From positions 248,001 to 312,000 of the forward strand of contig NZ_JAHKRN010000004.1 in the NCBI RefSeq assembly GCF_019396385.1: a stretch of 64,000 bases of DNA, in the 5' to 3' direction. Shown piece by piece: positions 39,955 to 56,113 of the stretch (its first letter is position 1; every line of letters starts with the position of its first letter). A model generated the notes under the pieces. The model saw only the letters and a program-made list of their open reading frames with translations, did no database searches and was not told the DNA's origin. Source of the stretch: Nonomuraea harbinensis (GTDB taxonomy: Bacteria > Actinomycetota > Actinomycetes > Streptosporangiales > Streptosporangiaceae). Position numbers and translations under genes: made by a program.

Positions 39955-39973
39955 GTTTGGGCGTAATACCAAC
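39955..39973. promoter_or_regulatory. ROK operator copy 1 (GTTTGG-N7-ACCAAC)
   Basis: GTTTGGGCGTAATACCAAC lies between the ROK regulator gene and the divergent importer-1 operon. It is flanked by AT-rich arms (ACTAATTT on the left, TAATTAA on the right). The TTTGTTTGGGC core is strikingly like the Bacillus XylR operator. The same GTTTGG-N7-ACCAA repeat occurs at 47807 and 56095. Confidence 0.82.
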
Positions 39974-40019
39974 TAATTAATCCTAGTTGGCCATTCCCAC
40001 TCGGAGAAGGGTGCGAGCG

Positions 40020-41660
40020 ATGAATCCGACGACTCGCCGAGGGTTCCTCGGCCTGGTCGGCGCGGGCGTCCTGGCGGCGGCGACCGGCTGCGCCGAGAAG
40101 CGGGGGCCCGCCCAGGGCACCGCGGTCGCCGCCGACAAGCTGGCGGGCCTGGTGCCGACCCGTATGCCGTACGAGATCCCCGGCCTGCGGCCCGACCTGC
40201 CCGGCAACGAGTTCGTCGCCCCCGGCTTCCTCACCCGGCCCGCCCAGATGGTGCAGGCGGTCACCACCAAGCCGATCACCAGCGGCAAGGAGGTGACCGC
40301 GATGACCCCGCTGTGGGGCACGGTGCCTCCCGGCCTCGGCGACAACTCCTACTACGCGGCCGTCAACGAGCGACTCGGCGGCACCGTCCGGTTCAACATC
40401 TCCGACGGCAACACCTACGTGCAGAAGGTCTCCACCCTCCTGGCCAGCGGCGACGTCCCCGAGCTGATGCAGATCCCCGGCTGGGAGCTGATCAAGATCG
40501 CCCGATTCACCGAGGCGGCCAACAAGCTCTTCGCCGACCTGTCGCCCTATCTCGCCGGCGACAAGGCCAAGGAGTTCCCGCTGCTGGCCAACTACGACAC
40601 GGCCGCCTGGCAGTTCGGCGTGTTCGGCGGCGTGCTGCAGGGCATCCCCTGGCAGAACGAGCCCTTCCCGTTCGCCCTCTTCGTCCGCCAGGACATCCTC
40701 GACGAGCTGGGCCTGCCGCACCCCAAGAGCACCGACGACCTGCTCACCCTGGGCAAGGAGCTGACCGACGCGAAGAAGAAGCGCTGGGCCTTCGGCGGCG
40801 TCGACCAGGAGCTCCAGCGCGCCTTCGGCGCTCCCCGCGAGTGGCGCAAGACGGCCCAGGGCACGCTGGTCCACAAGTACGAGACCGACGAGTTCGCGGC
40901 GGCGGTGGAGTTCCTGACCAAGCTCTTCGAGAACGGCTGGGTGCACCCCGACATCGTGGCCAACGCGTTCGCCGACCAGAAGGCGCCGTTCGGCAGCGGC
41001 CAGCTCATGATGCTGAAGGACGGGCTCGGCTCCTGGCACGAGAACCTCGGCCGCTTCCTGCCGGACAACCCGAAGTTCGACCAGCAGCCCGTGGCGCCGT
41101 TCGCGGCCACCGCCGGACAGGCCCCCATCGTCTGGCGCAACGAGCCCGCCAGCATGTTCTGCTTCGTCAAGAAGGGCCTGGGCGACGCCCGCACCCGCGA
41201 GCTGCTGGCCATCGCCGACTGGTGCTCGGCCCCGTTCGGGACCCAGGAGTACGAGCTGGTCAACAACGGCGTCGAGGGCGAGCACTACAAGGTCGAGGGC
41301 GGCAAGGTGGCGCAGACCGCCCTGGGCCGCAAGGAGGTCGCGCCCACGTACATGTTCCTGTCGGGACGGCCGCCGGCGAACTCCATGAGCCAGTACGACG
41401 GCCTCGTCCAGTCGCTGTGGGACTGGCAGACCGGCGCGGCCAAGTATCTGGAGAACGACCCGTTCGTGGGGATCCGGGTGGAGGTGCCGTCGAAGATGGC
41501 GGGCCTGGTCCAGCCGACGGAGGACAAGCTCAACGAGATCTACCGCGGCAAGCGGCCGGTCTCCGAGTGGAAGACGATCGTGAAGGAATGGCAGGAGCAG
41601 GGCGGCAACGAGGCACGCGAGTTCTACAGCAAGGTCGCCAAGGAGAACGGCCGCCTTTGA
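40020..41660 (+). CDS. ABC sugar importer 1, solute-binding lipoprotein (LplA-like)
   Basis: 546-residue extracellular solute-binding protein. Seen: twin-arginine motif TTRRGFLGL (4-12) and lipobox AATGC with Cys24, so it is probably Tat-exported and lipid-anchored; then a large bi-lobed domain with Trp-rich sugar-site sequences. The size and pairing with LplB/LplC-like permeases fit complex oligosaccharide importers. Start ATG 40020 follows GGAGAAGG. Its TGA stop is made by the end of the TnpB element inserted right behind it; the sequence predicted before insertion would read CTA TAA, giving the same C-terminus. Its permease genes now lie beyond the element at 43026 and 44012. Confidence 0.88.
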   Translation: MNPTTRRGFLGLVGAGVLAAATGCAEKRGPAQGTAVAADKLAGLVPTRMPYEIPGLRPDLPGNEFVAPGFLTRPAQMVQAVTTKPITSGKEVTAMTPLWGTVPPGLGDNSYYAAVNERLGGTVRFNISDGNTYVQKVSTLLASGDVPELMQIPGWELIKIARFTEAANKLFADLSPYLAGDKAKEFPLLANYDTAAWQFGVFGGVLQGIPWQNEPFPFALFVRQDILDELGLPHPKSTDDLLTLGKELTDAKKKRWAFGGVDQELQRAFGAPREWRKTAQGTLVHKYETDEFAAAVEFLTKLFENGWVHPDIVANAFADQKAPFGSGQLMMLKDGLGSWHENLGRFLPDNPKFDQQPVAPFAATAGQAPIVWRNEPASMFCFVKKGLGDARTRELLAIADWCSAPFGTQEYELVNNGVEGEHYKVEGGKVAQTALGRKEVAPTYMFLSGRPPANSMSQYDGLVQSLWDWQTGAAKYLENDPFVGIRVEVPSKMAGLVQPTEDKLNEIYRGKRPVSEWKTIVKEWQEQGGNEAREFYSKVAKENGRL

Positions 41661-41850
41661 CATCCTCCCCGTGCTGACCACAGGGATTCCAACCGCCAAT
41701 CACCCCACGAGGAGGAGGTCGCGTTGAGGTTCGCGGTGCACCGGCCCGGCAACCCGTGGCCCTTCCCGCGCGGACACGGCATGCCCTGCCGCGTGTGCGA
41801 TGTTCCTGGCCGCGTTCACATCGGCGTTGCAGGCGTATCCACACGACCGG
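41657..41850 (-). ncRNA. putative reRNA (omega RNA) of TnpB
   Basis: TnpB elements make a guide RNA that covers the 3' end of tnpB and the right end, with the guide taken from the flank. Here the segment would end at 41657 with the right-end hairpin at 41667-41685, and the guide would be the reverse complement of the solute-binding protein gene end (from 41656 leftwards). The 5' limit is a guess. Confidence 0.4.
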
Positions 41851-42893
41851 CACCGGTAACGCGCTTGGCTCTCACGCGCTTCCCGGTCCACGATCCCGCA
41901 CGCCGAGCACCGCTGACTCGTGTACGCGGGGCTGACCCTCACCACCCGCCCGGGCGCCTTGTCCTCCAAGCGTCGGACCAGACCGCCCCATCCGGCGGCC
42001 AAGATCGACCGACTCAACCCAGCCTTGGCCCGGACATTGCGGCCCGGCGCCTCGACGGTGCCACGCGCCGACCGGGTCATGTCGCGGATCTTCAGGTCTT
42101 CGACGGCGATCACGTCGAAACGCCGGGCGAGGTCCGTGCTGACCTTCTCCACCCAGTCCTTGCGCCGGTCGCTCTCGCGCGCCTTCACCCGGGCGATGGC
42201 GGCCTTGACCTCGGCGCGCCGGTTCGATCCGCGCGTGGCCCTGGCGAGCTTGCGCAACAGCCGCCGCAGTCGCGCCTTCTCCGTGTCGCGCAGGCCGGGA
42301 GGGTGCAGCATCTCGCCGGTGGACAGGGCCGCCGAGACCGCGACGCCACGGTCGACACCGACCACCTCGCCCAGGCCCGGCGCGGGGATCGGATCCGGGA
42401 TCGCGGCGAACGCGACATGCCACCGCCCGGCTCGGTCGAGGGTGACCCTGTAGGACTTCACCCCGTCGGGGACGGCGCGGGACCAGCGGAAGCGGATCCA
42501 GCCCACCTTCGGCACCTTCACCTCGCCCACGTGCCGGGACAGGCGGCGCACGTCACCCGCTTTGACGGCGACGATCCGGAACCCCTCACCCCGCCCGCGC
42601 TTGCGCCATGTCGGACGCCTGTGGGTGCCACCGAAGAAGGTCGCCATGGCCTGCGCGAAGTCCTTCAGAGCCTGCTGCTGAACGATGATCGATCCGGTGC
42701 GCAGCCACGCGGAGTCTTTCCGCGCCTCGGTCAACTGACGGCACTGCTCGGCGAACCCCGGCGCGGACTTGCGTCCCGGCTGCCGGCAAGCGTGCTGCTC
42801 GACCGCGAGATTCCACACATACCGGGCGTGCCCGCAGTGCTCCAGCAGCGCCTGCTCCTGGGCAGGCGAAGGCTTGAGCCTATAGCGGGACAC
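41700..42893 (-). CDS. tnpB: TnpB RNA-guided endonuclease (IS605 OrfB family)
   Basis: 397-residue TnpB. Seen: N-terminal RYRLKPSPAQEQALLEHCG, RuvC-I with Asp181 (GVDRGVAVS), RuvC-II with Glu265 (VEDLKIRDM), a four-Cys zinc finger (CSACG and CRSCG) and RuvC-III with Asp358 (NADVNAARNI). All three catalytic acids and the zinc finger are intact and there is no frameshift, so it is probably active. Start GTG 42893; TTG 42902 is possible. It lies antisense within the importer-1 operon. The frame's upstream continuation to 43979 is a shadow of the permease gene. The family is known to cut DNA next to a TAM using the element's own RNA. Confidence 0.92.
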   Translation of the reverse strand: MSRYRLKPSPAQEQALLEHCGHARYVWNLAVEQHACRQPGRKSAPGFAEQCRQLTEARKDSAWLRTGSIIVQQQALKDFAQAMATFFGGTHRRPTWRKRGRGEGFRIVAVKAGDVRRLSRHVGEVKVPKVGWIRFRWSRAVPDGVKSYRVTLDRAGRWHVAFAAIPDPIPAPGLGEVVGVDRGVAVSAALSTGEMLHPPGLRDTEKARLRRLLRKLARATRGSNRRAEVKAAIARVKARESDRRKDWVEKVSTDLARRFDVIAVEDLKIRDMTRSARGTVEAPGRNVRAKAGLSRSILAAGWGGLVRRLEDKAPGRVVRVSPAYTSQRCSACGIVDREARESQARYRCRSCGYACNADVNAARNIAHAAGHAVSAREGPRVAGPVHREPQRDLLLVG

Positions 42894-43025
42894 GCCGATC
42901 AACCTACCGACCGCTACCGACAAAACCGGAGACAGAAGTGTCCGACCGTTCCGGCTTTGCTCCCCGCTCTGAACGACGGGGCATCCAGCCTGTTGATAAC
43001 CAGTGACTCCCGGTAGGAGCCCGCT

Positions 43026-44015
43026 GTGGGCACGGTAACCGTCAAGAAGCCGGCCCGGCGCGGCCGGACCGACCCCCGGGCCGGAGGGGCCCGCGGCAAG
43101 CCCGTGACCTGGCGCGCCAAGCTGCGCCGCGACTGGCCGCTGCTGCTGATGAACCTGCCGATGCTGCTGCTCGTGGTGGCGTTCTGGTGGATCCCCGGGC
43201 TCGGCAACATCATCGCCTTCCAGGACTACAGCCCCTACTCGGGCGGCATCCTGGGCAGCCCGGTCATCGGCTTCACCAACTTCGCGCTGCTCTTCCAGGA
43301 CCCGCAGTTCCTGCGCGCGATCGTCAACACGCTGTCGATCACCGCCTTCCAGCTGATCTTCTACTTCCCGGTGCCGATCATGCTGGCGCTGCTGCTCAAC
43401 AGCGTGGTCTCGGCCAGGCTGCGGGCGTTCGTGCAGGGCGTCGTCTACCTGCCGTACTTCTTCTCCTGGGTGCTGGTGGTGGCCATCTTCCAGCAGATGT
43501 TCGGCGGCGCCGGCCTGCTGGCGCAGCTGCTGCGCGAGCGCGGGCACGAGGGCGTCGACTGGATGACGAACTCCGACACGTTCATCCTGCTGCTCACCAC
43601 GCAGACGATCTGGAAGGACGCCGGCTGGGGGGCGATCATCTTTCTGGCCGCGCTGAGCACGATCAACCCCAGCCTGTACGAGGCCGCGGCGGTCGACGGC
43701 GCCAAGCGGTGGCGCCGGATGTGGCACATCACGCTCCCGGGGCTGCGACCGGTGATCATCCTGCTGCTGATCCTGCGGCTGGGCGACGCGCTGAACGTCG
43801 GCTTCGAACAGTTCATGCTGCAGCGCGGCGCGGTCGGCAGCGAGGTGTCGGAGGTGTTCGACACGTTCGTCTTCTACTCGGGCCTGCGCACCGGGGATCT
43901 CGGCTACGGCGCGGCCGCCGGGCTGTTCAAGGGCCTGGTCGGGCTGCTGCTGATCGTCGCGGCCAACCGGGTGGCGCACGCGTTCGGCGAGCGAGGGGTG
44001 TATTCGAGATCATGA
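43026..44015 (+). CDS. ABC sugar importer 1, permease (LplB-like)
   Basis: 329-residue inner-membrane permease of the carbohydrate uptake CUT1 family. Seen: a basic N-terminal arm, six membrane helices and the EAA loop (EAAAVDGAKRWRRMWHITLP) that contacts the ATPase. GTG start with AGGAG at 43015-43019. It overlaps the next permease by 4 bases (ATGA). It was probably coupled to the solute-binding gene before the TnpB element inserted. No ATPase gene is nearby, so a shared MsiK-type ATPase is expected. Confidence 0.92.
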   Translation: MGTVTVKKPARRGRTDPRAGGARGKPVTWRAKLRRDWPLLLMNLPMLLLVVAFWWIPGLGNIIAFQDYSPYSGGILGSPVIGFTNFALLFQDPQFLRAIVNTLSITAFQLIFYFPVPIMLALLLNSVVSARLRAFVQGVVYLPYFFSWVLVVAIFQQMFGGAGLLAQLLRERGHEGVDWMTNSDTFILLLTTQTIWKDAGWGAIIFLAALSTINPSLYEAAAVDGAKRWRRMWHITLPGLRPVIILLLILRLGDALNVGFEQFMLQRGAVGSEVSEVFDTFVFYSGLRTGDLGYGAAAGLFKGLVGLLLIVAANRVAHAFGERGVYSRS

Positions 44016-44935
44016 CGCTGCTGGCGACGAGGAAGAAGAAGCCGTCGGGCCTGGCGGCGTGGGAGGAGCCGCCCTCACCGGCCGGGCGGGTCGGCAAGGG
44101 CGCGGTGCTGACGGTCATCGTGCTGGCCGTGCTCCTGCCGCTCTACACGATCGTGCTGACGAGCCTGAGCTCCAAGGCCACGGTGAACCGGGTGGGCGGG
44201 CTGGTGCTGATCCCGGAGGGCATCACTTTCGACGCCTATATCCAGATATTTTCGGACACGGTGGTGCGGCGGGCCGTGCTGGTCGCCACCGGCGTCACCG
44301 TCGTCGGCACCGCCATCAGCCTGGGCGTGAGCATCCTCGGCGCGTACTCGCTGGCCCGGCCCGGCTCGTTCCTGCACCGGCCGCTGCTCTTCGCGGTGCT
44401 GCTGATGTTCGTGTTCTTCCCCGGCCTCATCCCCGTCTACCTGATGGTCAGCGGGCTCGGGCTGAAGGACACCTACTGGTCGCTGATCCTGCCGACGGCG
44501 GTGTCGGCGTTCAACGTGGTGGTGATGCGGGCGTTCTTCATGAACATCCCCGGCGAGATCATGGACAGCGCCAGGATCGACGGGGCGGGCGAGTTCCGCA
44601 TCCTGTGGCGGATCGTGCTGCCCATGTCGAAGGCCGTCACCGCCGTCGTCGGCCTGTTCTACGCGGTCGGCTACTGGAACGCCTGGTTCAACGCGATGCT
44701 CTACCTCGAGGACACCCGCAAGTGGCCGCTGGCGCTGGTGCTGCGGCAGTACGTGGTGGACTCCAACCCGCTGCCCACGGCGACCGTGGGGGTCACCGGC
44801 GCGGGCGACATGCCGCCGACACTGGCCATCAAGATGGCGATCGTGGTGGTCGCCGTGGTCCCCGCGCTGGTCATCTACCCGTTCGTGCAGCGCCACTTCA
44901 CCAAGGGCGTGCTGATCGGTGCCGTCAAGGGGTGA
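44012..44935 (+). CDS. ABC sugar importer 1, permease (LplC-like)
   Basis: 307-residue CUT1 permease, six membrane helices, EAA-type loop (MDSARIDGAGEFRILWRIVLP). ATG 44012 overlaps the preceding stop. It ends at a perfect 10-bp palindromic hairpin shared with the convergent GH74 gene. Works with the permease and binding protein upstream to import oligosaccharides. Confidence 0.92.
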   Translation: MTLLATRKKKPSGLAAWEEPPSPAGRVGKGAVLTVIVLAVLLPLYTIVLTSLSSKATVNRVGGLVLIPEGITFDAYIQIFSDTVVRRAVLVATGVTVVGTAISLGVSILGAYSLARPGSFLHRPLLFAVLLMFVFFPGLIPVYLMVSGLGLKDTYWSLILPTAVSAFNVVVMRAFFMNIPGEIMDSARIDGAGEFRILWRIVLPMSKAVTAVVGLFYAVGYWNAWFNAMLYLEDTRKWPLALVLRQYVVDSNPLPTATVGVTGAGDMPPTLAIKMAIVVVAVVPALVIYPFVQRHFTKGVLIGAVKG

Positions 44936-44958
44936 GGGCGCCCCCGGAGGGGCGCCCT
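44935..44958. terminator. bidirectional hairpin between permease and GH74 genes
   Basis: AGGGCGCCCC (44935-44944) and GGGGCGCCCT (44949-44958) form a perfect 10-bp stem with a CGGA loop between the two convergent stop codons. No long T run. Confidence 0.8.
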
Positions 44959-44962
44959 CAGG

Positions 44963-47653
44963 CTAGACAGGCGTGCAGGTGAGGGCCGGCGTGGAGCCGG
45001 CGCTGGTCTGGCTGCCGTTGAAGCCGAACGACGTGGCCGCGTTCGGCGCCAGGTTGCCGTTGTAGCCGGCGTTGGTCACGCTCACGTTCGCGCCCGACTG
45101 GGTGTGCGAGCCGCTCCAGAGCTGGCTGATCCTCTGGTCACCCGGCCAGGTCCAGGTCACCCGCCAGCCGGTGATGGCCGAGCCGCCGGTGTTGCGTACC
45201 GTGACCTCGGCCTGGAAGCCGCCGGGCCACTGGTTGCCCGCCTGGTAGGTGGCCGTGCAGTCGGTGCCGGTGGTCGGGGTCACCGTGGGGGTCACCGTGG
45301 GGGTCACCGTGGGGGTCACCGTGGGGGTCACCGTCGGAGTGACCGTCGGAGTGACCGTGGGCGTCACGGTGACCGGCGGGCCGGTGCGGTCGCCGTAGAT
45401 GATGCCGCGGCCGTTGGTGCCCAGGTAGACGCGGCCGTACACGCGCGGGTCGCCCGTGAGCGCCTCGCCCATGTTGCCCCACTGGTGCTGGTCGTCGTTG
45501 ATCCGGAGCCAGTTCGCGCCGGTGTCGTCCGAGCGGTAGAGGCCGGTGACGCCGTCGATCGTGGCCACCGCGAAGATCGCCATGTAGGTCGCGCCGGGCG
45601 CGGCCTTGCCGAAGCCGACGTTCACCGAGCCGGTGATCCCGGAGATCTTGGTGAAGGACGCGCCGCCGTTGGTCGAGCGCCACAGGCCGCCCTCGCCCGC
45701 CAGCCAGATGTGGCCCTCGACGCCGGGCACGGCCTTGAACTTGCCGGTCGTGGGCAGCCCGGAGGCGGCGGTGGCGGTGAACGACGCGCCGCCGTTCGTG
45801 CTGGCGTAGAACCGGCCGCCGTCGAACCCGTAGAACTTCGAGGCGTTGACCCGGTCGGACTCGACGATCGCGCCCGTCGGCAGGCCCTGCACCTGGGTCC
45901 AGGAGTTGCCGAAGCCGACCGAGTAGTGCGGGGTGACGCCGCGCGGCGCCCACACGAAGCGGGAGCCGTCGGCCGCCGCCGCGACCGTGCCGCCCTCGTT
46001 GATACCGCCGGGCTCGCTGCCCTGGAACCAGTTGGCGCCGCCGTCGGTGGAGAAGGCCACGTGGCTGTCGTTCGGCCGGTCGGCGTCGGTGAAGTTGCCG
46101 GCCCGCACCATCACGGACGGGTTCCGCTCGGCGTAGTCGAGGCTGGTCGTGGAGGTGAAGTTGGGCGAGGTGAACATCATCGGCGGCACCGCGTCCAGGT
46201 TCGTGTGCCGGAACCCGGCGATGTCACCCAGGCCGCTGATCAGCGGGGCGCCGCTGGGCGGGCTGATCAGGTCGAGCACCGCGGTCTCCTCCAGCCCGCG
46301 CACCATGGGCTTGATCGTGAACGTGCCGCCGGAGTCCCACTGGGTGAGGTTCTCGGTGCCGTAGATCGTGGCACCGGTCCCGTACATCATCCGGTTGGAG
46401 TCGAACGGGTCGATCTCCAGCGACTCGGTCATCCAGCCGAGCTTGGGCGTGACCTCGGGCGGCTGCGGGTTGGTGCCGAAGGTCAGCCAGGGCACCTCGG
46501 AGACGTTCATCTGGTAGCGGAAGCTGCGGTTCGGGTACGAGGTCCAGTCCCAGACCCGGGTCCAGGTGGCGCCGGAGTCGGTCGACCTGAAGAAGATCAC
46601 GTCAGGCCACCAGGAGATCTGGGTGGCGACCATCAGCGTGCCGGGGTCCTGCCGGTCCAGGGTGAGGCCGCTGTAGCCGAAGTAGTCGTCCGAGCTGGAC
46701 GACGGCACCGGGCTGACCTGGGTCCACGTGCCTGTCGCGGTGTCGAGCCGCCACACGTCGCCCTTGGCGCCGTCGTACGGGCCGCTGGTGTCGCTGGTGG
46801 CGATGAACAGGTGGCCGTTCTGGGCGTCCAGCACGCCCTTGTGCGCGATGTAGCCGGTCGGCTGGCCCGCCACGCGCTGCCAGGTGGCCCCGGCGTCCGT
46901 GGTGCGGTAGACGGTGTTCTGCTTGTCGGCCACGCCCACGTAGATGGTCCTGGTGGCGGTGCCCGAGGAGGACGAGCGCGGGTCGTAGGTCACCCAGACG
47001 ACGCCGGGGCGGTGGCTCTGGTAGCCGTTGGGGTCGCTCGGGTCGTCGGCGTGGTTGCCGGGGTTGGGGAAGCTCGTCACCTTCGCCCAGGTGGCGCCGT
47101 AGTCGGTGCTGCGCCACAGGCCGTTGCCGTTGGGGGCGCCGAAGTAGAGCACGCTGTTGCGGTTGGGGTCGACCGACAGCGCCTCGCCCATGCCGCGGCC
47201 GGGCATGTTGCCGCCGAGCTTGAACGGCAGCTGGGTGGCCTGCCAGGTGGCGCCCTTGTCGGTGGAGCGCAGGATGGCGCCGTTGTTCGGGTCCCAGTCG
47301 TTGGTGTACATGCCGACGGCCGCGTACAGGCGGTTGGTCTGCACGGGGTCGGTGGCGAGGCTGATCACGCCGTTCCAGCCCCACTTGTCCCAGCCCACCC
47401 AGTCGAGCAGCGGCGTCCAGGACTTCGACGACTGGTTCCAGCGGTACGCGCCGCCGATGTCGGTGCGGGCGTAGATCAGGTTGCGCTCCGTGGGGTTGAA
47501 GACGATGCCGGGCACGAACCCGCCGCCGTCGATCCGCACGTTCTTGTAGGTGTACGGGTCCGCCGCGACGGCGGCGACCGGAGTCATCCGCACCACTGCT
47601 GTGGCCAGCAGGACGGCGGTGATCGCGAGCAGGCTGAGTAATGCCTTTCGCAT
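44963..47653 (-). CDS. Secreted GH74 xyloglucanase with CBM2
   Basis: 896 residues. Signal peptide (1-31), then a GH74 catalytic part of two seven-bladed propellers with sialidase-type STDxGATW repeats. The catalytic acids are Asp65 (ARTDIGGAYRW) and Asp477 (GLGDIAGFRH), at the positions conserved in GH74 xyloglucanases. A VTPT-repeat linker (about 760-795) leads to a C-terminal family 2 cellulose-binding module with Trp residues (ITGWRVTWTWPG, ISQLWSG). It would cut the beta-1,4-glucan backbone of xyloglucan outside the cell. Start ATG 47653 follows GGGAG; the longer frame to 47770 is not supported. An ROK operator copy lies upstream at 47807. Confidence 0.94.
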   Translation of the reverse strand: MRKALLSLLAITAVLLATAVVRMTPVAAVAADPYTYKNVRIDGGGFVPGIVFNPTERNLIYARTDIGGAYRWNQSSKSWTPLLDWVGWDKWGWNGVISLATDPVQTNRLYAAVGMYTNDWDPNNGAILRSTDKGATWQATQLPFKLGGNMPGRGMGEALSVDPNRNSVLYFGAPNGNGLWRSTDYGATWAKVTSFPNPGNHADDPSDPNGYQSHRPGVVWVTYDPRSSSSGTATRTIYVGVADKQNTVYRTTDAGATWQRVAGQPTGYIAHKGVLDAQNGHLFIATSDTSGPYDGAKGDVWRLDTATGTWTQVSPVPSSSSDDYFGYSGLTLDRQDPGTLMVATQISWWPDVIFFRSTDSGATWTRVWDWTSYPNRSFRYQMNVSEVPWLTFGTNPQPPEVTPKLGWMTESLEIDPFDSNRMMYGTGATIYGTENLTQWDSGGTFTIKPMVRGLEETAVLDLISPPSGAPLISGLGDIAGFRHTNLDAVPPMMFTSPNFTSTTSLDYAERNPSVMVRAGNFTDADRPNDSHVAFSTDGGANWFQGSEPGGINEGGTVAAAADGSRFVWAPRGVTPHYSVGFGNSWTQVQGLPTGAIVESDRVNASKFYGFDGGRFYASTNGGASFTATAASGLPTTGKFKAVPGVEGHIWLAGEGGLWRSTNGGASFTKISGITGSVNVGFGKAAPGATYMAIFAVATIDGVTGLYRSDDTGANWLRINDDQHQWGNMGEALTGDPRVYGRVYLGTNGRGIIYGDRTGPPVTVTPTVTPTVTPTVTPTVTPTVTPTVTPTVTPTTGTDCTATYQAGNQWPGGFQAEVTVRNTGGSAITGWRVTWTWPGDQRISQLWSGSHTQSGANVSVTNAGYNGNLAPNAATSFGFNGSQTSAGSTPALTCTPV
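45276..45372. repeat. in-frame 12-bp tandem repeat encoding VTPT linker
   Basis: About eight copies of GTCACCGTGGGG-type units (plus strand) coding for VTPT on the minus strand; it joins the GH74 domain to CBM2. The copies are nearly identical in DNA, which suggests recent expansion and possible length variation. Confidence 0.9.
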
Positions 47654-47806
47654 GAGCGGCTCTCCCTTTCCTGGCACGCCGAAAGAGCGCACCTGAGGAC
47701 AAACAGATGACCGCCATGCACGACCAGGTTGCAGGACCCTGACCATCGCCGCGCCCTCGCGCATGAGCAATTAGAGGCTCACACACGCCTCAACGGCCCG
47801 TCAATA

Positions 47807-47825
47807 GTTTGGACGCACAACCAAA
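47807..47825. promoter_or_regulatory. ROK operator copy 2 (GTTTGG-N7-ACCAAA)
   Basis: GTTTGGACGCACAACCAAA lies 154 bases upstream of the GH74 start, between GH74 and the terminator of the GH3 gene. It shares both half-sites and the spacing with copies at 39955 and 56095, which puts the secreted xyloglucanase under the same regulator. Confidence 0.78.
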
Positions 47826-47828
47826 TAA

Positions 47829-47869
47829 GTCGGCCCGGCGCGGAGCCATGCTCCCCGTGCCGGGCCGAC
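47829..47869. terminator. terminator of the GH31-importer-GH3 operon
   Basis: Outer stem GTCGGCCCGGC (47829-47839) against GCCGGGCCGAC (47859-47869), with an inner GGAG/CTCC stem. It lies 7 bases after the GH3 stop (minus strand) and insulates the GH74 promoter. Confidence 0.8.
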
Positions 47870-47875
47870 GCTCCG

Positions 47876-50752
47876 TCACCGGGCCAGGGTCAGATCCCTG
47901 AGCCGGATCCCGCCCTTGAAGAGCACGTACAGGTCGCCCTTGCCGGGCTTGAGCCGCGCCGTGACCGTGGCGTACTCGTACACCCCGCCCGTGGCCGGCA
48001 CCTGGACGGAGGCCAGCAGAGCGCCCTTCGGTGAGCCGCGGCGGAGCTCGATCGAGCCGCCCGCGACCGAGGCCACCCCGGCGCTGAGCTCAGCCCCGTA
48101 GACGGCGTCGGTGAACGAGATCCAGCCGCCGTCCGACCCGGCCACCACGTCGCCGCGCACCTTGTTCTCGTCGGCGAACGTGACGCCCGCGTAGTCGTCG
48201 AAGTTCATCGCCCTGGTCGGCTTCGTCAGGTCGCGCGGCGGCACCTTCTCCCCGCTCACCTTCAGCGTCGTACGCTGCCTGATCTTGTCCGAGGCGGAGC
48301 CCACGAGCACGTCGTGCGCGGCGTCCTCGACCACCCACGTGTCCCGCGTGTGGTCCCACACGGCCAGGTCGGACTTCTTCAGCGGGAACGTCACCGTCTT
48401 CGACTCGCCCGGCGCCAGCGCGATCCGCTGGAAGCCGCGCAAGCGCTTGACCGGCTGGTCGAAGCGGGACTGCCGCTGGTGGGTGTAGAGCTGCACGACC
48501 TCCTCGCCCGCCACGCGGCCGGTGTTGGTGACCTTGACGCTCACCTGCTCGCCCTGCGCCTTCAGCCCCTGGTAGCCGAACGTGGTGTAGCTGAGCCCGT
48601 GGCCGAACGCGAACTGCGGCCGGCCCTCGTGGTACAGGTACGTCATCCCGGTCTTGGCCAGGTCGTAGTCCAGGATGCTCGGCAGCTCGCCACCGGCGTA
48701 CCAGGTCTGGGTGAGCCGCCCGGCCGGGTTCACCTCGCCGAAGAGCACGTCGGCGACCGCGTGCCCGGTCTCCGCGCCCGCGTGCGTGGTCCACAGCAGC
48801 GCCGGGGCGTCCACGATCACGGGATAGCTGGTCTCCAGCACCACCACGGTCCTCGGGTTCGCCTTCCGCACGGCCTCGATCAGCCGCTTCTGCCCGTCGC
48901 CCAGCCGCAGGTCGTCGCGGTCGTGGAACTCGCGGCCGTGCACCCACGGGTGGCTGCCGACGACCACGACCGCGACCTCGGCCTTCCGGGCCTGCTCGGC
49001 CGCCGCGGCGATGCCGTCGGAGACGACCTCCTTGGCGAACCTCGCCGCCTCCGCCTTCGGGGCCAGCGCGAGCGCGCCGTCGGCGGTCACGGTCACGTAC
49101 GGGTCGGGCAGCGCGTACCAGCCCTCGACCGCCTCGAACCCGGCGTACCGGATCAGGAAGGTCCCGTCGCCCTGCTTCTCCAGCGAGAACTGCTGCGACA
49201 CGTACCAGCCGTTGGGGTCGTCGTCGTCGGTGTCGAGCGAGCGCCAGTCGCCGCCGAGCAGCTTGCCGTTGCCCGCGTTGCGCAGCGTCGAGATGTCGCT
49301 CACCCAGTCGGTCACGTCCCACTGCGAGGCGGGCGTCGGCGCGGTGTCCACGAGCGCGGCGTTGGCGTCGGGCCCGGTTCCGGTGGCCGTGACGTACTTG
49401 CCGGACTCGACGTGCTTGAGCGCGACGCGCTCCAGGCCCGCCCCGGTGGTCACGTCGGCGACCCGCTCCTTGATCCCGTCCAGCGGGGTGACCTCGTACG
49501 GCATCGTGCCCGCGTACCAGTCGCTGTAGAGCTCGTCCGCCAGCGGGCCGACCACGGCCGCCGACTTCGGCGACCTGAGCGGGAGCGTGCCGGAGTTCTT
49601 CAGCAGCACGGCCGCCTTGGCCGCGGTCTCACGGTTGAGCGCGCGGTGCGCGGGGCTGTCGATCACGCCCGCGCCGATGCCCTTGTACGGGCCGCCGTCC
49701 GGGTCGAAGTGGCCCAGGCGGAACCGGATGGTCAGCGCCCGGCTGACGGACCGGTCGACGTCGGCCTCGGTGATCAGGCCGCGCTCCAGGGCCGTGGTGA
49801 GGTGCTGCACCATCGGGCCCTTGTCGCTGCCGTCGATGGTGAAGCTGTCCTGGCCCGACTTGAGCACCGCGGCGAACGCCTCGGCCTTGTCGTCGTAGTA
49901 CCGCTCCAGGTCGGTGAGCGCGTGCGGGCCCCAGGCGTCGCTGACGTTGTAGAGCGTCTTGTCCGTCCAGGACCTGACGACCTCCTCCAGGTCGGAGTTG
50001 ACGTGGTTGGGCCGGCCGTTCACCAGGTTGTACGAGGCCATGACCCCGGTCGCGGCGTCAGCCGAGATCGCCGACCTGAACGCCTGCTCGTAGTACTCGT
50101 GCTTGAGCCTGGGCGTCAGGTTGGACGAGGTGAGGCTGCGGTTCACCTCGTTGTTGTAGGCCAGGTAGTGCTTCAGCACCGGCGCGGTCTTCAGGTAGAA
50201 CGGGTCGTCGCCCTGCAGGCCCTTGCCGTACGCGGTCGCGATGGCGCCGGTCAGCAGCGGGTCCTCGGAGTAGCCCTCCTCGTTGCGGCCCGCCCGGGGG
50301 TCGCGCAGCGGGTCCACCACCGGCGCCCAGACCTGCAGGCCCCACAGCGTCGGGTCGGTCGCGTTGTAGCCGCGCGCCTCGTCGCCGACGGCCGAGCCGA
50401 CCCGCTTGATCAGCTCCGGGTCCCAGGTGCTGGCCAGGCCGACGGCCTGCGGGAACACGGTGCCCTTGGCCAGCTTCTGGTTCCAGTTGTCGTCGAGCGC
50501 GTTGGACCAGGCGACGCCGTGCAGCGCCTCGGTGCCGTTCTTGTGGTACGGGACGCCCAGGCGCGGGATGGCCTCCTGCGACTGGTGCAGCAGGCCCAGC
50601 TTCTCCTGCAAGGTGAGCCGGCCCAGCAGGTCGGCGACCCGCTGCTCCACCGGCAGCGACGGGTCGCGGAACGGTAACTCCGCCTGCGCCGCGGCCGGTG
50701 CCGCGAGCAGCGACGCGACCAGGGTTAAGGCGATCAGGATCGGTTTCTTCAT
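47876..50752 (-). CDS. Secreted GH3 beta-glycosidase with inserted fascin-like module
   Basis: 958 residues. Signal peptide (1-24, ending AAAQA), GH3 N-domain with KHYLAYNNE and nucleophile Asp272 (NVSDAWGP), GH3 C-domain (VVVVGSHPWVHGREFHDRD), fibronectin III-like domain and a CBM6-like C-terminus. A segment at about 440-575 (ALKHVESGKYVTATG, then further beta repeats) resembles fascin-type beta-trefoil repeats and occupies the site where PA14 is found in other GH3 enzymes. It is a paralogue of the cytoplasmic GH3 at 35760 but exported, so it would trim xyloglucan oligosaccharides outside the cell. Last gene of the five-gene GH31 operon. Confidence 0.9.
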   Translation of the reverse strand: MKKPILIALTLVASLLAAPAAAQAELPFRDPSLPVEQRVADLLGRLTLQEKLGLLHQSQEAIPRLGVPYHKNGTEALHGVAWSNALDDNWNQKLAKGTVFPQAVGLASTWDPELIKRVGSAVGDEARGYNATDPTLWGLQVWAPVVDPLRDPRAGRNEEGYSEDPLLTGAIATAYGKGLQGDDPFYLKTAPVLKHYLAYNNEVNRSLTSSNLTPRLKHEYYEQAFRSAISADAATGVMASYNLVNGRPNHVNSDLEEVVRSWTDKTLYNVSDAWGPHALTDLERYYDDKAEAFAAVLKSGQDSFTIDGSDKGPMVQHLTTALERGLITEADVDRSVSRALTIRFRLGHFDPDGGPYKGIGAGVIDSPAHRALNRETAAKAAVLLKNSGTLPLRSPKSAAVVGPLADELYSDWYAGTMPYEVTPLDGIKERVADVTTGAGLERVALKHVESGKYVTATGTGPDANAALVDTAPTPASQWDVTDWVSDISTLRNAGNGKLLGGDWRSLDTDDDDPNGWYVSQQFSLEKQGDGTFLIRYAGFEAVEGWYALPDPYVTVTADGALALAPKAEAARFAKEVVSDGIAAAAEQARKAEVAVVVVGSHPWVHGREFHDRDDLRLGDGQKRLIEAVRKANPRTVVVLETSYPVIVDAPALLWTTHAGAETGHAVADVLFGEVNPAGRLTQTWYAGGELPSILDYDLAKTGMTYLYHEGRPQFAFGHGLSYTTFGYQGLKAQGEQVSVKVTNTGRVAGEEVVQLYTHQRQSRFDQPVKRLRGFQRIALAPGESKTVTFPLKKSDLAVWDHTRDTWVVEDAAHDVLVGSASDKIRQRTTLKVSGEKVPPRDLTKPTRAMNFDDYAGVTFADENKVRGDVVAGSDGGWISFTDAVYGAELSAGVASVAGGSIELRRGSPKGALLASVQVPATGGVYEYATVTARLKPGKGDLYVLFKGGIRLRDLTLAR

Positions 50753-50777
50753 GGGGGGTTCTCCTCGGGAGGGAGGC

Positions 50778-51599
50778 TCACTTCACGGCGCCGACCGTGA
50801 TGCCTCGGGTGAGCGTGCGCTGGAAGATCAGGAAGAACGCCACCGCCGGGACGATGCCGAGCAGGGCGGAGGCGCTGGACATGGTCGCGTCCATGTACCG
50901 CTCGCCCTGGAGCACGCCCAGCGCGACCGGCACGGTCTGGTTGTCGTTGGAGATGAGGAAGATCAGCGGCAGGAAGAACTCGTTCCAGGTCCAGATGAAG
51001 AAGAAGATCATCAGGACGCTGATCGTCGGCCTGCTGATCGGCACCACGACCCGGACCAGCGCCCTGAACCGGCCGGCCCCGTCGATCTCGGCCGCCTCCA
51101 GGATCTCCTTCGGGAACTGGCCGAGCACCGCGCTGAGCAGGTACGTGCCGAACGCCGCCTGGATCACGGTGAAGATGATGATCATCGACAGCCTGGTGTC
51201 GTACAACCCGGCTTCCTTGGCCAGGTAGTACAGCGGGTAGGCCAGCGCCTCCTGCGGCAGCGTGTTGGCCACCAGGAACAGCACCAGGATCGACAGCCGC
51301 CCGCGCACCCGCCCGATGCCGAGCGCGTACGCGTTGAGCACCGACAGCACGACCGCCAGCACCGCCACGGAGCCGCTGATGAGCAGGCTGTTCCAGAGCT
51401 TCTCGCCGAAGTCCACCCGGTTCCAGAAGTCCACGATGCCCTGGAGATAGAGCCCGCCGGGCAGCCCGAGCGGCCCCTCCGACGCGTACTCCTCGGGCGT
51501 CTTGACCGCGTTGAGCGCCACGAGGGCGAACGGGAACACCATCACCAGCGCCGCCACCGTCATCGACGCCAGGACGGCCCACCGGCCCGGCCCTCTCAT
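50778..51599 (-). CDS. ABC sugar importer 2, permease (CUT1)
   Basis: 273-residue inner-membrane permease with six membrane helices and the EAA loop (LEAAEIDGAGRFRALVRVVVP). ATG 51599 overlaps the stop of the preceding permease (ATGA), and the GH3 gene follows after 25 bases. Together with the neighbouring permease and binding protein it imports oligosaccharides; no ATPase gene in the window. Confidence 0.92.
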   Translation of the reverse strand: MRGPGRWAVLASMTVAALVMVFPFALVALNAVKTPEEYASEGPLGLPGGLYLQGIVDFWNRVDFGEKLWNSLLISGSVAVLAVVLSVLNAYALGIGRVRGRLSILVLFLVANTLPQEALAYPLYYLAKEAGLYDTRLSMIIIFTVIQAAFGTYLLSAVLGQFPKEILEAAEIDGAGRFRALVRVVVPISRPTISVLMIFFFIWTWNEFFLPLIFLISNDNQTVPVALGVLQGERYMDATMSSASALLGIVPAVAFFLIFQRTLTRGITVGAVK

Positions 51600-52459
51600 G
51601 ACTCACGCTCCTGCACCCGCAGGAACAGGAACGTCACCACGACGATGATCAGGGCCAGCACGGTCGCGATCGCGGACCCGTACCCGACGTTGCTCTTCTG
51701 GAAGAAGTTCAGGTACGAGAAGTACGACGGCACCAGCGTGGCGTTGCCGGGCCCGCCCCGGGTGAGCACGAAGATCGGCCCGAACACCTTGAGCGCGGCG
51801 ATCGTGCAGGTGAGCAGCACCACGAAGATCTCCGGCCGGATCTGCGGGATCGTGATGTGCCACACCTTGCGCCACCACGACGCCCCGTCCAGCTCGGCCG
51901 CCTCGTAGTAGGCCGGGTCCACCCGCTGCAGCCCCGCCATGAAGATCACCACCGGGTAGCCGAGCTGGAACCACACCATCACCGCCATCACGGTGGCCAG
52001 CGCCAGGTCGGGGTCGCCCAGCCAGTCGAGCTCCAGGCCGAACGCCTGGTTGACCGCGCCGTACGACGGGTGCAGCATCCAGCCCCACACCACGCCGGCC
52101 ACCGCCACGGGCAGCACCTGCGGCAGGTAGTACATGGCGCGCAGCGCCGAGGCGGTGCGCGGGCCGAACCGCCTGCCGATGTAGTCGAACAGCGCCGCCG
52201 CCAGGACCAGGCCGAGCACCGTGGGCACGATCGCCATCGCGAAGATCAGCGCCACGTTGTTCTGGAACGACAGCCAGAACCGCTCGTCCTCCAGTAACCG
52301 GGCGTAGTTCTCCAGCCCGACCCACCTGGGCGTGCCCACCCCCGACCAGCGGGTGAAGCTCACGCCCAGGTTCATCAGGAACGGCACCACGATGACGGCC
52401 AGGAACAGCACCAGGCTCGGCACCAGGTAGAGCCAGTAGCCCTTCTTACGGACGCGCAT
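51596..52459 (-). CDS. ABC sugar importer 2, permease (CUT1)
   Basis: 287-residue CUT1 permease, six membrane helices, EAA loop (YYEAAELDGASWWRKVWHITIP). Its ATG directly abuts the stop of the solute-binding protein gene and its stop overlaps the next permease, so translation is coupled. Partner of the 50778-51599 permease. Confidence 0.92.
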   Translation of the reverse strand: MRVRKKGYWLYLVPSLVLFLAVIVVPFLMNLGVSFTRWSGVGTPRWVGLENYARLLEDERFWLSFQNNVALIFAMAIVPTVLGLVLAAALFDYIGRRFGPRTASALRAMYYLPQVLPVAVAGVVWGWMLHPSYGAVNQAFGLELDWLGDPDLALATVMAVMVWFQLGYPVVIFMAGLQRVDPAYYEAAELDGASWWRKVWHITIPQIRPEIFVVLLTCTIAALKVFGPIFVLTRGGPGNATLVPSYFSYLNFFQKSNVGYGSAIATVLALIIVVVTFLFLRVQERES

Positions 52460-53761
52460 CTAGTTGCCGAGGTCGGCGAGGTTGTCCTCGTACGGCTGCG
52501 CGAGCTCGTCCAGCATCGCGGCGGGCTGCTTGCTGCCGTTGATGAGGTTCTGCGTGGCGGCGACCATGACGTCGTAGTAGCCGGGCGCCGGCCAGTCGGG
52601 GTAGAACGCCAGCCCGTCCCTGGCGGTCAGCGTGTTGAAGCTCTCGATCAGCTCCTTGCTCTTGGCGTCCGTGATCGCCGCCGGGTCGGCCGCGACCGGC
52701 ACGCCGCCGGAGTTGCCCAGCAGGTTCTGGACGTCCTTGCTCATCGTGATGTCGATGAAGTCGTAGGCCAGGTCCTTGTTCTCGGACTTCTCCGGCACGA
52801 CCCAGAGGTTGCCGCTGGAGCCGGGCGCCATCGTGGCCCCGGGCCACAGGAAGTGACCCCACTCGAAGTCCTTGATCTCCGAGGCGAACCGGCCGTACCA
52901 CCAGCTTCCGCTGACCATCATCGGGTGCTCGCCCTTCATGAACGACACGCCCATGTCCTCGGCCTTGATCCCGGAGGACTTCTTGTCGAGGTAGCCCTTG
53001 CCGACCCAGTCGGCGAACGTCTGCGCGCCGTAGGTGAACTGGGGGCCGTGGAAGTCGACCTTGCCCTGGTACGCCTGGAAGGCGTCCACCCAGGCCCGGT
53101 CGGCCTTGCTGAGCGCGAGCTGGTAGAAGATCTGCTGCGCCGGATACTCGGCCCCGGCGGTGCCGATCGGGGTCACCCCGGCCTTGACGAAGGTGTCGAG
53201 CGCGGCGGTGAACTCCTCGAAGGTCGTCGGCACCTCGACCTTGTGCTTCTCGAACAGGTCCTTGTTGTAGTAGACCATCACGAACTCGCCGTAGTTCGGG
53301 ATGCCGTACCACTTGCCGGCGCCCATGACGCCCCGCTCGTCGTACTTGGCCGTGGTCTGCAGGCCGCCCGGCAGCAGCTTGTCCCAGCCGCGCCCGGTGA
53401 CCTCGGCGCTCAGGTCGGCGAGCAGGCCCTGCTTGGACAGCAGGCCGGCGGTGGCGTTGCCCTTGTTGTACTCCATGAGGTCGGGCGCCTCGTCGGAGTT
53501 GAGCACCATGCTCGCCGTCTTCTGGATCTGCTCGAAGCTCTTCTCCTCGAACTCCACCTTGACGTTCGGGTGGGAGGCCTCGAACTTCTTGATCGCCTCG
53601 GCCCAGGCCTTGCCCATGGCGGACTCGGCCGCCTCGTAGTGCCAGAGCTTGAGCACACGGGGCCCGTCGCTCTGCGCGGGCGGGCTCTCCGAGCCGGAAC
53701 CGCAGGCCGAGAGGGCCAGCACCATGGCTGCCAGCGCCGCCACGCCAGACTTTTTGATCAT
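52460..53761 (-). CDS. ABC sugar importer 2, solute-binding lipoprotein
   Basis: 433-residue family 1 solute-binding protein: Sec signal with lipobox LSAC (Cys20), then a bi-lobed sugar-binding domain (VLKLWHYEAAESAMGKAW). ATG 53761 has GGAGGAAAT upstream and overlaps the GH31 stop (ATGA). It would capture oligosaccharides freed by GH74 and hand them to the two permeases. Ligand is inferred from context. Confidence 0.92.
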   Translation of the reverse strand: MIKKSGVAALAAMVLALSACGSGSESPPAQSDGPRVLKLWHYEAAESAMGKAWAEAIKKFEASHPNVKVEFEEKSFEQIQKTASMVLNSDEAPDLMEYNKGNATAGLLSKQGLLADLSAEVTGRGWDKLLPGGLQTTAKYDERGVMGAGKWYGIPNYGEFVMVYYNKDLFEKHKVEVPTTFEEFTAALDTFVKAGVTPIGTAGAEYPAQQIFYQLALSKADRAWVDAFQAYQGKVDFHGPQFTYGAQTFADWVGKGYLDKKSSGIKAEDMGVSFMKGEHPMMVSGSWWYGRFASEIKDFEWGHFLWPGATMAPGSSGNLWVVPEKSENKDLAYDFIDITMSKDVQNLLGNSGGVPVAADPAAITDAKSKELIESFNTLTARDGLAFYPDWPAPGYYDVMVAATQNLINGSKQPAAMLDELAQPYEDNLADLGN

Positions 53762-56055
53762 ATTTCCTCCTGGGTGATGACGGCCCGGCCGGGCGCGCCC
53801 GGCACCGGGGCGAACTCGACGGCGGCGACCCGCTTCGGCCCGGTGACGGTCACGCGCAGCGTGTCGCCCTCCAGAGTGGCCGTGACGGCGGTCTCTCCGT
53901 CGGTGTCGTGGATCCGCATGCGGCGGTCGCCGCTCCCGAAGGCGACCAGCGTGATCCGGTCCGGCGTCCGCACGGTGTCCCCCGGCTCGGCGACAGGGAT
54001 CAAGGCACCGTACCGGACGAACAGCGGGAGCTCGGCGAGCGGCTTGACCACGCGGACGTAGCGGGAGCCGGCGTGCACCTCGCCCGTCCAGTAGTCCACC
54101 CACTCGCCCTCCGGCAGGTAGACCTCCCGCGCGCCCTCCGGCGAGGTCATCGGCGCCACCAGCAGGTCGCGGCCGAGCAGGTACTGCAGGTCCGCCTGCC
54201 AGGCGACCGGGTCGCCCGGGTGGTCGACGCAGAGCGCGCGCATCATCGGGGCGCCCGTCCTGGCGGCGTCCACGGCCGCCGAGTAGATGTAGGGCATCAG
54301 CCGGTAGCGCAGCCGGAGCGCGGCCACCGCGTGCTCCTCCACCGCCGGGAACTCCCACGGCTCCCTGCTGGTGGTGCCGTGCAGCCGCAGCAGCGGCGAC
54401 AGCGCGCCGAACTGGGTCCACCGGACGAACAGGTCGTCGGTGGGCCTGCCGGTGAAGCCGCCCGCGTCGTGGCTCCAGAACGGCACCCCGGACAGGCCGT
54501 GCGCCAGCCCGCCCCGGATCGTGCTGCCCATCGCGGCGTAGCTCGTGTAGGTGTCGCCGCTCCACTGGGCGCTGTGCCGCTGACCGCCGAGGAACGACGA
54601 GCGCGCCCACACCAGGCTGTGCCCGTGCACCTCCCTGGTGACCTCGGCGACGGCGTCGTTGAACAGCAGCGTGTAGACGTTGTGCAGGTCGGTGCCGGTC
54701 ATCCCGTTGGCCGCGACCGCGTCGTGCGGCACGCCTTCGGCGAAGTCGGTCTTGAACGCCTGCACGCCCTGGTGCAGCAGCGCCCTGAGCCGGTCCTGGA
54801 ACCAGCGGACGGCGTCGGGGTGGGTGAGGTCGAGGATGCCGCAGGCGGGGTAGGAGCCGTGCCAGGTGTCGGCCACGTACGGCTCACCATCGGGCTTTTT
54901 CAGGAAATATCCGGCATCGGCTGCTTCCTGGAACGCCGGGCTCTGATGGGAGATGTACGGGTTCATCCACAGGCAGACCTTGAACCCCATCCCGTCCAGC
55001 TCCGCCAGCATCGCCTCCGGCTCGGGGAAGTTGACCGGGTCCCAGCGCAGGTCCGACCAGTGGCCGTCGGTCTGCCAGTAGGTGTCCAGGTGCAGCACGT
55101 CGCACGGGATGCCGCGCTCCCTGATCGTGCGCGCCCTGGCCAGCACCCGCTCCTGGCTGTCGACGCAGAAGCCGGAGGAGATCCAGGTGCCGAACGCCCA
55201 CTTCGGCGGCAGCACCGGCCGGCAGGTCAGCCCGTTGTAGCGCTCCAGCACCTCGGCCGGGGTCGGCCCGGCCAGCACGTAGTAGTCCATGACGTCGTCG
55301 GGCACCACGATCTGCACCGCGCTGTGCGTCGACTGGCACACGTCGAACTCGGTGGGCGCGCCGCTGTCGACCAGCACCCCGTACCCCTTGCTCGACACGT
55401 ACAGCGGGATGTTCTTGTACGCGCGCTGCGACTCGGCGCCGAAGGCGTCGAAGTTCCACATCAGGGGCCGCTGGCCGCGCTTGTCGAGCGGCGCGAACGA
55501 CTCCCCGAACCCGGCGAACGCCTCGTCGGGCGCGACCTCGAAGCTCTCGTGGAAGGCCACGTGCGCGCCGCCCGCCGACGACCGGCCGAACGGCAGCGTA
55601 CGCAGCCGGCCGCTGATGTCGGTGTGCCCCCGGTCCTGCTCCAGCAGCGGGGCGCCGGTGGCGTCGGTGAAGCGCAGGTGCCACGGCGCCAGCCTGATCT
55701 CGGCCCGCAGCGAGCCCGCGTCGATCACGATCGGCTCCCCCGGCGTCACCTCGGCCCGCGCTCCCGCGTACGAGCCCGGCGTCACCATCGCGATGGCCCG
55801 CTCCGAGCGGGGCCGGGCGTCGGCGTCCTCGCTCAGCCGGACCCGGATCACGCCCTCGCCCGCGACGCCGATCTGCACGACCAGGGTCTCCTCCGCCGTG
55901 GTGACGGCCTTCAGCATCACTCCCGCGCCGTCGGCGGCGACCAGCTCGGCGGCGGTCAGCGCGGACAGTCCACCCTCGCCGTGGGCGCGCACCGGCAGCT
56001 CGGGCGGGTCGGCGACGAAGTACTCGTGCGCGACGAGTGGGGGGCGGTAGGGCAT
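53758..56055 (-). CDS. GH31 alpha-xylosidase-like enzyme (YicI type)
   Basis: 765 residues, no signal peptide, so cytoplasmic. GH31 barrel with nucleophile Asp437 in FKTDFAEGVPHDA and acid/base Asp501 in WSGDTYTSY; the KTDFAE form (not the D-M-N-E of alpha-glucosidases) fits the YicI-type alpha-xylosidase group. It would remove alpha-1,6-xylose from the non-reducing end of imported xyloglucan oligosaccharides, freeing xylose. First gene of the operon GH31, binding protein, permease, permease, GH3. ATG 56055 follows GAGGAGCG, and an ROK operator copy lies upstream at 56095. Confidence 0.9.
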   Translation of the reverse strand: MPYRPPLVAHEYFVADPPELPVRAHGEGGLSALTAAELVAADGAGVMLKAVTTAEETLVVQIGVAGEGVIRVRLSEDADARPRSERAIAMVTPGSYAGARAEVTPGEPIVIDAGSLRAEIRLAPWHLRFTDATGAPLLEQDRGHTDISGRLRTLPFGRSSAGGAHVAFHESFEVAPDEAFAGFGESFAPLDKRGQRPLMWNFDAFGAESQRAYKNIPLYVSSKGYGVLVDSGAPTEFDVCQSTHSAVQIVVPDDVMDYYVLAGPTPAEVLERYNGLTCRPVLPPKWAFGTWISSGFCVDSQERVLARARTIRERGIPCDVLHLDTYWQTDGHWSDLRWDPVNFPEPEAMLAELDGMGFKVCLWMNPYISHQSPAFQEAADAGYFLKKPDGEPYVADTWHGSYPACGILDLTHPDAVRWFQDRLRALLHQGVQAFKTDFAEGVPHDAVAANGMTGTDLHNVYTLLFNDAVAEVTREVHGHSLVWARSSFLGGQRHSAQWSGDTYTSYAAMGSTIRGGLAHGLSGVPFWSHDAGGFTGRPTDDLFVRWTQFGALSPLLRLHGTTSREPWEFPAVEEHAVAALRLRYRLMPYIYSAAVDAARTGAPMMRALCVDHPGDPVAWQADLQYLLGRDLLVAPMTSPEGAREVYLPEGEWVDYWTGEVHAGSRYVRVVKPLAELPLFVRYGALIPVAEPGDTVRTPDRITLVAFGSGDRRMRIHDTDGETAVTATLEGDTLRVTVTGPKRVAAVEFAPVPGAPGRAVITQEEI

Positions 56056-56094
56056 GGACGCTCCTCTTCCAGACAGCGCAAAACTCGTGAATTA

Positions 56095-56113
56095 GTTTGG
56101 CGCCCATACCAAC
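56095..56113. promoter_or_regulatory. ROK operator copy 3 (GTTTGG-N7-ACCAAC)
   Basis: GTTTGGCGCCCATACCAAC, with AATTA to the left, lies 40 bases upstream of the GH31 start. Half-sites and spacing equal those at 39955. The divergent ArsR gene starts 79 bases away on the other side and may or may not be affected. Confidence 0.8.

Follow-up and report, generated by a model that had tools for sequence, protein, structure and literature searches.

The locus described here very probably contains a regulon dedicated to the utilisation of xyloglucan and controlled by a repressor of the ROK family; judged from sequence, this is the best explanation of the data. The window, a stretch of 64,000 nucleotides of the Nonomuraea harbinensis genome, holds three candidate operators: between the ROK gene and a divergent importer, upstream of a GH74 xyloglucanase gene, and upstream of an operon that begins with a GH31 gene. 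Relatives keep this candidate switch before the same genes and before further xyloglucan genes, and thus one sugar-sensing repressor very probably runs all of them. The locus has the following features.

35760 to 38528, minus strand: GH3 enzyme with Fn3-like and CBM6 domains (Pfam), downstream of the ROK gene after a 99-base gap
38628 to 39860, minus strand: ROK-family regulator, the proposed repressor (Pfam ROK 3.7e-53, MarR_2 4.7e-7; PDB 1z05, Mlc, NagC-like)
39952 to 39976 (core 39955 to 39973), no strand: candidate operator 1, exact match, in the 159-base gap between the divergent ROK and SBP1 genes
40020 to 41660, plus strand: SBP1, solute-binding protein of importer 1 (Pfam SBP_bac_1 2.7e-18)
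41656 to 42993, minus strand: IS605-type TnpB element (OrfB_IS605 and Cas12f1-like TNB domains)
43026 to 44015, plus strand: permease a of importer 1 (Pfam BPD_transp_1 3.8e-17)
44012 to 44935, plus strand: permease b of importer 1 (Pfam BPD_transp_1 1.1e-6)
44963 to 47653, minus strand: GH74 xyloglucanase with CBM2 (best PDB match 6p2o, 1143 bits, E 0; CBM_2 3.8e-26)
47804 to 47828 (core 47807 to 47825), no strand: candidate operator 2, exact match, 153 bases upstream of GH74
47876 to 50752, minus strand: GH3 enzyme with CBM6, last in the GH31 operon (Pfam; signal-peptide-like N-terminus)
50778 to 51599, minus strand: permease b of importer 2 (open reading frame and conservation beside SBP2)
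51596 to 52459, minus strand: permease a of importer 2 (open reading frame and conservation)
52460 to 53761, minus strand: SBP2, solute-binding protein of importer 2 (SBP_bac_1 2.6e-34)
53758 to 56055, minus strand: GH31 enzyme, YicI-like (PDB YicI, E 9e-131)
56092 to 56116 (core 56095 to 56113), no strand: candidate operator 3, exact match, 39 bases upstream of GH31

The cores of the three sites match the pattern GTTTGG-N7-ACCAA(C/A) exactly. This pattern was absent from 100 dinucleotide-preserving shuffles of the window. It has three copies in the whole genome (9,392,139 bases, or 9.39 Mb, in 140 contigs), all of them at this locus, and a backward control pattern does not occur in the genome. 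The positions given in the preliminary description are thus confirmed, and the gaps of 159, 153 and 39 bases place the sites, as it had stated, before the ROK gene and importer 1, before GH74, and before the GH31-importer 2-GH3 genes. The many random copies in the genome that would have spoken against a regulon were not found, and the regulon reading is not refuted. The fuller form of the operator is a 25-base imperfect dyad, TTAGTTTGG-N7-ACCAACTAA, to which sites 1, 2 and 3 have one, two and one mismatches, respectively. With up to three mismatches allowed, it has four matches in the genome, the three sites of the window and one on contig C12. The latter, with three mismatches, overlaps the 3' end of an open reading frame of 2082 amino acids, and was taken as a chance match rather than a fourth member. 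No sigma-70-like promoter was recognised by the promoter scan around any of the three sites. The terminator scan picked out two terminator-like sequences close to site 2, both on the minus strand.

A looser core picks up palindromes of the type TTTGGGAGCGCTCCCAA at C27:164726-166459 and C46:81506-81523. Their centre differs, and they were set aside as regulon members. We take them to be likely CebR-type cello-oligosaccharide operators.

The product of the ROK gene, for which we chose a GTG start, has an N-terminal helix-turn-helix and a C-terminal ROK domain (Pfam ROK at residues 96-393, MarR_2 at 30-71, HTH_IclR at 29-71), as expected of a ROK-family regulator. Its nearest sequence relatives are the Mlc- and NagC-type repressors. 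The translation, read by eye, contains H...C-x-C-x4-C, the zinc motif of the ROK family. The kinase ATP motif DxGxT is missing from the start of the ROK domain, where GVEINVDYVAAVATD is found instead. By family precedent, the protein would act as a repressor released by sugar. The genes of the GH3-Fn3-like-CBM6 enzyme and of the regulator are probably co-transcribed, and this GH3 gene adjoins the ROK gene in most of 80 related loci. The best PDB relatives of the enzyme are beta-xylosidases and beta-glucosidases, isoprimeverose-producing enzymes being lower in the list; for both GH3 enzymes of the locus, every NCBIfam score is under the cut-off.

The GH74 protein aligns with solved xyloglucanases across the entire catalytic part, which marks it as an endo-enzyme cutting xyloglucan, and by the look of its N-terminus it is likely secreted. 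The GH31 operon is a tight run of five genes, GH31-SBP2-permease-permease-GH3-CBM6, on the minus strand from 56055 down to 47876. In the GH31 protein, KTDFAEGVP is aligned opposite KTDFGERIP of YicI. It scores 578.5 bits against the NCBIfam alpha-xylosidase family NF007940, under the family cut-off of 606, and thus its assignment as an alpha-xylosidase is probable rather than certain. The best PDB matches of SBP2 are 4g68 and 3vxb, presumably binders of xylo-oligosaccharides; SBP1 has one PDB match, a weak one. An open reading frame of 333 amino acids beside the locus, at 58349-59350, has no match in Pfam or NCBIfam.

The proposed mechanism of regulation is as follows. When sugar is absent, the ROK protein would occupy the 25-base dyad at three places and would shut the divergent promoters of ROK-GH3 and importer 1, the GH74 gene, and the five-gene GH31 operon. 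Secreted GH74, present at a low level, would cut xyloglucan, and the resulting oligosaccharides would enter via the importers. GH31 would then take off xylose, and the GH3 enzymes would take off the exposed sugar. An intracellular product, xylose itself or a saccharide specific to xyloglucan (isoprimeverose, for example), would bind in the sugar pocket of the ROK protein and cause its release. We infer binding to the sites, and repression rather than activation, and the location of site 1 in a divergent promoter region implies autoregulation.

The site neighbourhoods were mapped in ten relatives. Six of them (G051, G050, G045, G004, G036 and G029) have a site at all three positions, and G006 and G021 have one before ROK and one before GH31. 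Operator 2 upstream of GH74 is retained in the same six genomes and in G108. Operator 3 upstream of GH31 is retained in nine of the ten, the mapped stretch of G108 having no GH31 match. In G108, sites precede ROK and GH74, and a third one lies between genes of the GH42 and GH95 families, which were recognised by reading alone. The sites persist in rearranged loci. In G036 (L044), importer 1 is gone and site 1 is retained; in N. glycinis (G017, L046), GH74 and importer 1 have been lost, and ROK lies behind the GH31 operon, whose site persists. In the sites of the relatives, the flanks are conserved and the centre is variable.

Of 80 named loci around relatives of ROK, 78 have a site within 400 bases upstream of the ROK gene when up to four mismatches are allowed, the exceptions being L069 (N. 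glycinis, G017) and L134. Random stretches of the same length taken from the same loci had a site in 1 of 80 cases in each of three rounds. The regulator thus has a conserved candidate operator, an inverted repeat, beside its own gene, as a member of the ROK family should. The possibility that the three sites are due to chance or are a repeat artefact can be practically dismissed, as they are absent from the shuffles, all three copies in the genome fall in the locus, and the relatives conserve the flanks but not the centre; a chance origin is refuted by the comparative data.

The operator was also sought with a weight matrix in loci held out from its training. The matrix was trained on 50 distinct sites from loci L036-L099, all from one family. 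The test set comprised 29 of the 35 loci L100-L134, L103, L114, L125, L127, L128 and L133 having been dropped because they are close to the training set. Most of the test loci are from Micromonosporaceae, and their ROK proteins have 49 to 71% identity; L101, L132 and L134 belong neither to Micromonosporaceae nor to Glycomycetaceae, and are nearer to the training family. In these 29 loci, 563 kb in total, 38 sites scored at least 24: 27 upstream of ROK, 10 additional ones upstream of GH31, and, in Actinoplanes rectilineatus, one between a GH42 gene and a divergent GH95 gene. The first group includes the site of L126, which the script had labelled 'other', as the ROK gene is elsewhere in the locus, and which we counted as upstream of ROK. 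The GH31 sites occur in 10 of the 12 loci that hold GH31, 4 to 85 bases upstream of the gene. L101 and L134 have no site at the threshold of 24. Five simulated sequences with the same length of 563 kb and the same base transitions contained no sites. It follows that this operator type, as read from sequence, is common to no fewer than two families of actinomycetes, the Streptosporangiaceae and the Micromonosporaceae.

Within the genus, the sites co-occur with the regulator. Among 54 Nonomuraea genomes, that of the window included, 44 carry an orthologue of ROK, with 74 to 100% identity. In complete per-genome counts with up to three mismatches, each of these 44 genomes has at least one site and 42 have two or more, with 138 matches against 19 for the backward control. 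The ten other genomes contain distant ROK paralogues only, or nothing at the cut-off; two of them have one stray match each, two in total, against five for the control. The GH31 orthologue follows the same division: all 44 genomes that carry the ROK orthologue have it, and the ten others lack it. The co-occurrence of ROK and sites has a Fisher p of 4e-8, a value that assumes independence of the genomes although they are related. Part of it is explained by loss of the entire locus. Because the co-occurrence is in part a matter of one locus being gained or lost as a whole, it is by itself no proof that this ROK protein, among the 28 ROK-domain matches of the genome, binds the sites.

Another protein, a ROK paralogue or a global regulator, might bind the sites, with the neighbouring ROK gene a bystander. 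The 28 ROK-domain matches and the likeness of half-sites within the family agree with this, as does a near-match in G038 (L152) that is flanked by two paralogous ROK genes in divergent orientation. However, in the genus the sites vanish with this ROK orthologue while the paralogues persist, the site adjoins this ROK gene in 78 of the 80 loci, and in N. glycinis ROK has moved into an operon that retains a site. We consider such a bystander role improbable. The claim that the three sites and the ROK gene form one regulon is supported by the positional conservation, the co-occurrence of ROK and GH31, and the held-out matrix.

The genes found at sites outside the main locus also point to xyloglucan. 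Such sites were sampled in the relatives among the matches listed, and the statements of this paragraph on GH12, GH35, GH95 and the second GH74 refer to these matches. Secreted GH12 genes are preceded by a site in G010, G045 and G051, and these sites are nearly perfect dyads, TTAGTTTGG-N7-CCAAACTAA. GH35 genes are preceded by a site with three mismatches in G117 and G046, and a second GH74 gene by a site in G085. GH42/GH95 sites were observed in G094, G108 and L131. L102 has a site before GH42, and L105 has one between GH42 and GH31, both with lower scores on the GH42 side. GH74 and GH12 cut the xyloglucan backbone, GH95 removes fucose, GH42 and GH35 remove galactose, and GH31 removes xylose. 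Enzymes of GH12, GH35, GH42 and GH95 are those to be expected with galacto- and fucogalacto-xyloglucan, and the set of enzymes at the sites fits xyloglucan and not xylan. The beta-galactosidase and alpha-fucosidase families (GH35, GH42, GH95) occur at the sites of the relatives but not at those of the window. Xyloglucan as the subject of the regulon, proposed in the preliminary description, is thus borne out by GH74 and GH31 in the window and by GH12, GH35, GH42 and GH95 in the relatives.

Other off-locus matches, among those listed, precede unrelated genes (L137-L139, L141, L143, L147, L152, L153, L156), and the match in L140 precedes a gene for a secreted lectin-containing protein. None of these loci has a supporting gene, and they were rejected as members. 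In L137, L138 and L139, from three genomes, an identical 25-base near-match, CTAGTTTGG-N7-ACCAACTTG, overlaps the start of a TetR-like gene. It is probably either autoregulatory for this gene or coincidental.

The preliminary description had noted a close resemblance of site 1 to the Bacillus operator xylO and had named xylose or a xyloglucan oligosaccharide as the probable inducer. In the available part of PMC12034463, xylO of B. subtilis is described as two palindromic arms of ten bases around a non-palindromic centre of five. When aligned in register, sites 1, 2 and 3 share with it 14, 13 and 14 of 16 outer bases, and the inner bases differ. The resemblance of site 1 therefore holds for the outer bases. 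It does not hold for the 11-mer that had been quoted, TTTGTTTGGGC, which comprises bases 5-15 of xylO, including the five centre bases, but bases 1-11 of site 1, and hence a different part of the operator. Because of this shifted register the 11-mer was rejected as evidence for xylose. The half-site TTAGTTTG is also contained in the site of S. coelicolor RokB, AGTTTGTTC...GAACAAAG, as given in the accessible portion of PMC4856308. Since it occurs with other ROK regulators, it does not point to xylose, and the AGTTTG at the edge of the RokB site likewise marks it as a trait of the ROK family. The step from xylO likeness to xylose as the inducer is thus not supported.

Free xylose, one of the two inducers named in the preliminary description, may nevertheless be the inducer, with the ROK protein a strict XylR; we regard this combination, with the regulon itself real, as a serious possibility that falls short of likely. 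GH31 should release xylose in the cell, and in Bacillus and Thermotoga xylose is the signal for the ROK regulators that bear the name XylR, according to the available parts of PMC12034463 and PMC3750489; in the latter, T. maritima XylR in vitro also responds to more concentrated glucose. The outer bases shared with xylO in register agree with this reading, as do a site that, among the matches listed, precedes an FGGY kinase gene resembling xylulokinase in G073, and a xylA gene adjoining a ROK gene in G121 that carries a four-mismatch version of the site. However, in the genome of the window the best operator match in the xylA-xylB gap has five mismatches, so that the control of xylose genes expected of XylR is not observed there, and a separate ROK gene lies close to these genes. 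Among 30 xylA loci examined, none has a site with at most three mismatches and one has a site with four, whereas the XylR regulons of Firmicutes and T. maritima include xylA (PMC2873477, PMC3750489, in the parts available). Moreover, xylan also yields free xylose, and the wrong enzymes would then be switched on. As the inducer, we slightly favour a xyloglucan-specific saccharide over xylose. Our tentative proposal, plausible though not yet probable, is a xyloglucan-dedicated ROK regulator distinct from XylR, which has one operator type in at least two families (Streptosporangiaceae and Micromonosporaceae) and senses isoprimeverose or an XXXG-like fragment rather than free xylose. If so, xyloglucan and xylan would be distinguished inside the cell.

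The xylose genes themselves have other candidate signals. In the genome of the window (C69:70309-75125, L157), xylA and xylB are divergent, and a second ROK gene, 39% identical over 291 residues, follows approximately 0.5 kb after xylB. The xylA-xylB gap contains TTAATTTGTTTTTTGCCCTTACGAA, which is kept in L162 and L163 and is a candidate operator of the second ROK protein. Many other Nonomuraea xylA genes (L166-L185) are instead preceded by a shared element that is close to GGATTATGTACAGATTATGGACTAA and probably serves some other regulator as its operator.

The dedicated xyloglucan regulon proposed here resembles several known systems. XylR of B. subtilis is also a ROK repressor with a 25-base operator, and the outer bases TTAGTTTG...CAAACTAA are largely common in register. 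However, the half-site continues with GG here and with TT in xylO, the centre has seven bases here and five in xylO, and the targets here are xyloglucan enzymes, the organism's own xylA and xylB having no site. T. maritima XylR, likewise a ROK protein, represses ABC importers and hemicellulose enzymes in several operons; in the available part of PMC3750489, xylA, xylB and enzymes for xylan belong to its regulon, whereas the xyloglucan locus of T. maritima is under the LacI-family GloR. RokB of S. coelicolor is also an actinomycete ROK protein with a mapped site, with AGTTTG and CAAA arms, but the arms differ and its regulon, in the accessible portion of PMC4856308, is suggested to concern amino-acid metabolism and transport. 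The xyloglucan locus of Ruminiclostridium cellulolyticum, as far as the available parts of PMC4780118 and PMC8576529 describe it, likewise combines import of oligosaccharides with subsequent cytosolic breakdown involving an alpha-xylosidase, but this is a cellulosomal clostridium, unlike the host here. No ROK regulator of xyloglucan use in actinomycetes is described among the matches listed from the open-licence literature. With the proposed regulon, xyloglucan use in many soil and antibiotic-producing actinomycetes would gain a regulator, an operator and a list of targets. The regulon would also offer a test case for whether the sugar sensed by a ROK protein can be a disaccharide or an oligosaccharide instead of a monosaccharide, and the motif can assign GH12, GH35, GH42 and GH95 enzymes of unknown duty to xyloglucan.

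Finally, the TnpB element sits between SBP1 and the permeases of importer 1, in the opposite orientation, and splits the importer. Its edges were set by alignment with its other copies, which are found on C1 (90%), C70 (92%, partial) and C66. The element is not part of the regulon. Its reading frame, judged by eye, retains acidic residues at the usual places, so that there is little likeness to a nuclease-dead TldR. In 20 named relatives where both genes are more than 70% identical, the spacing between SBP1 and the permease, taken from alignment ends, is -42 to 81 bases. Importer 1 may be weakened in this genome by the insertion.
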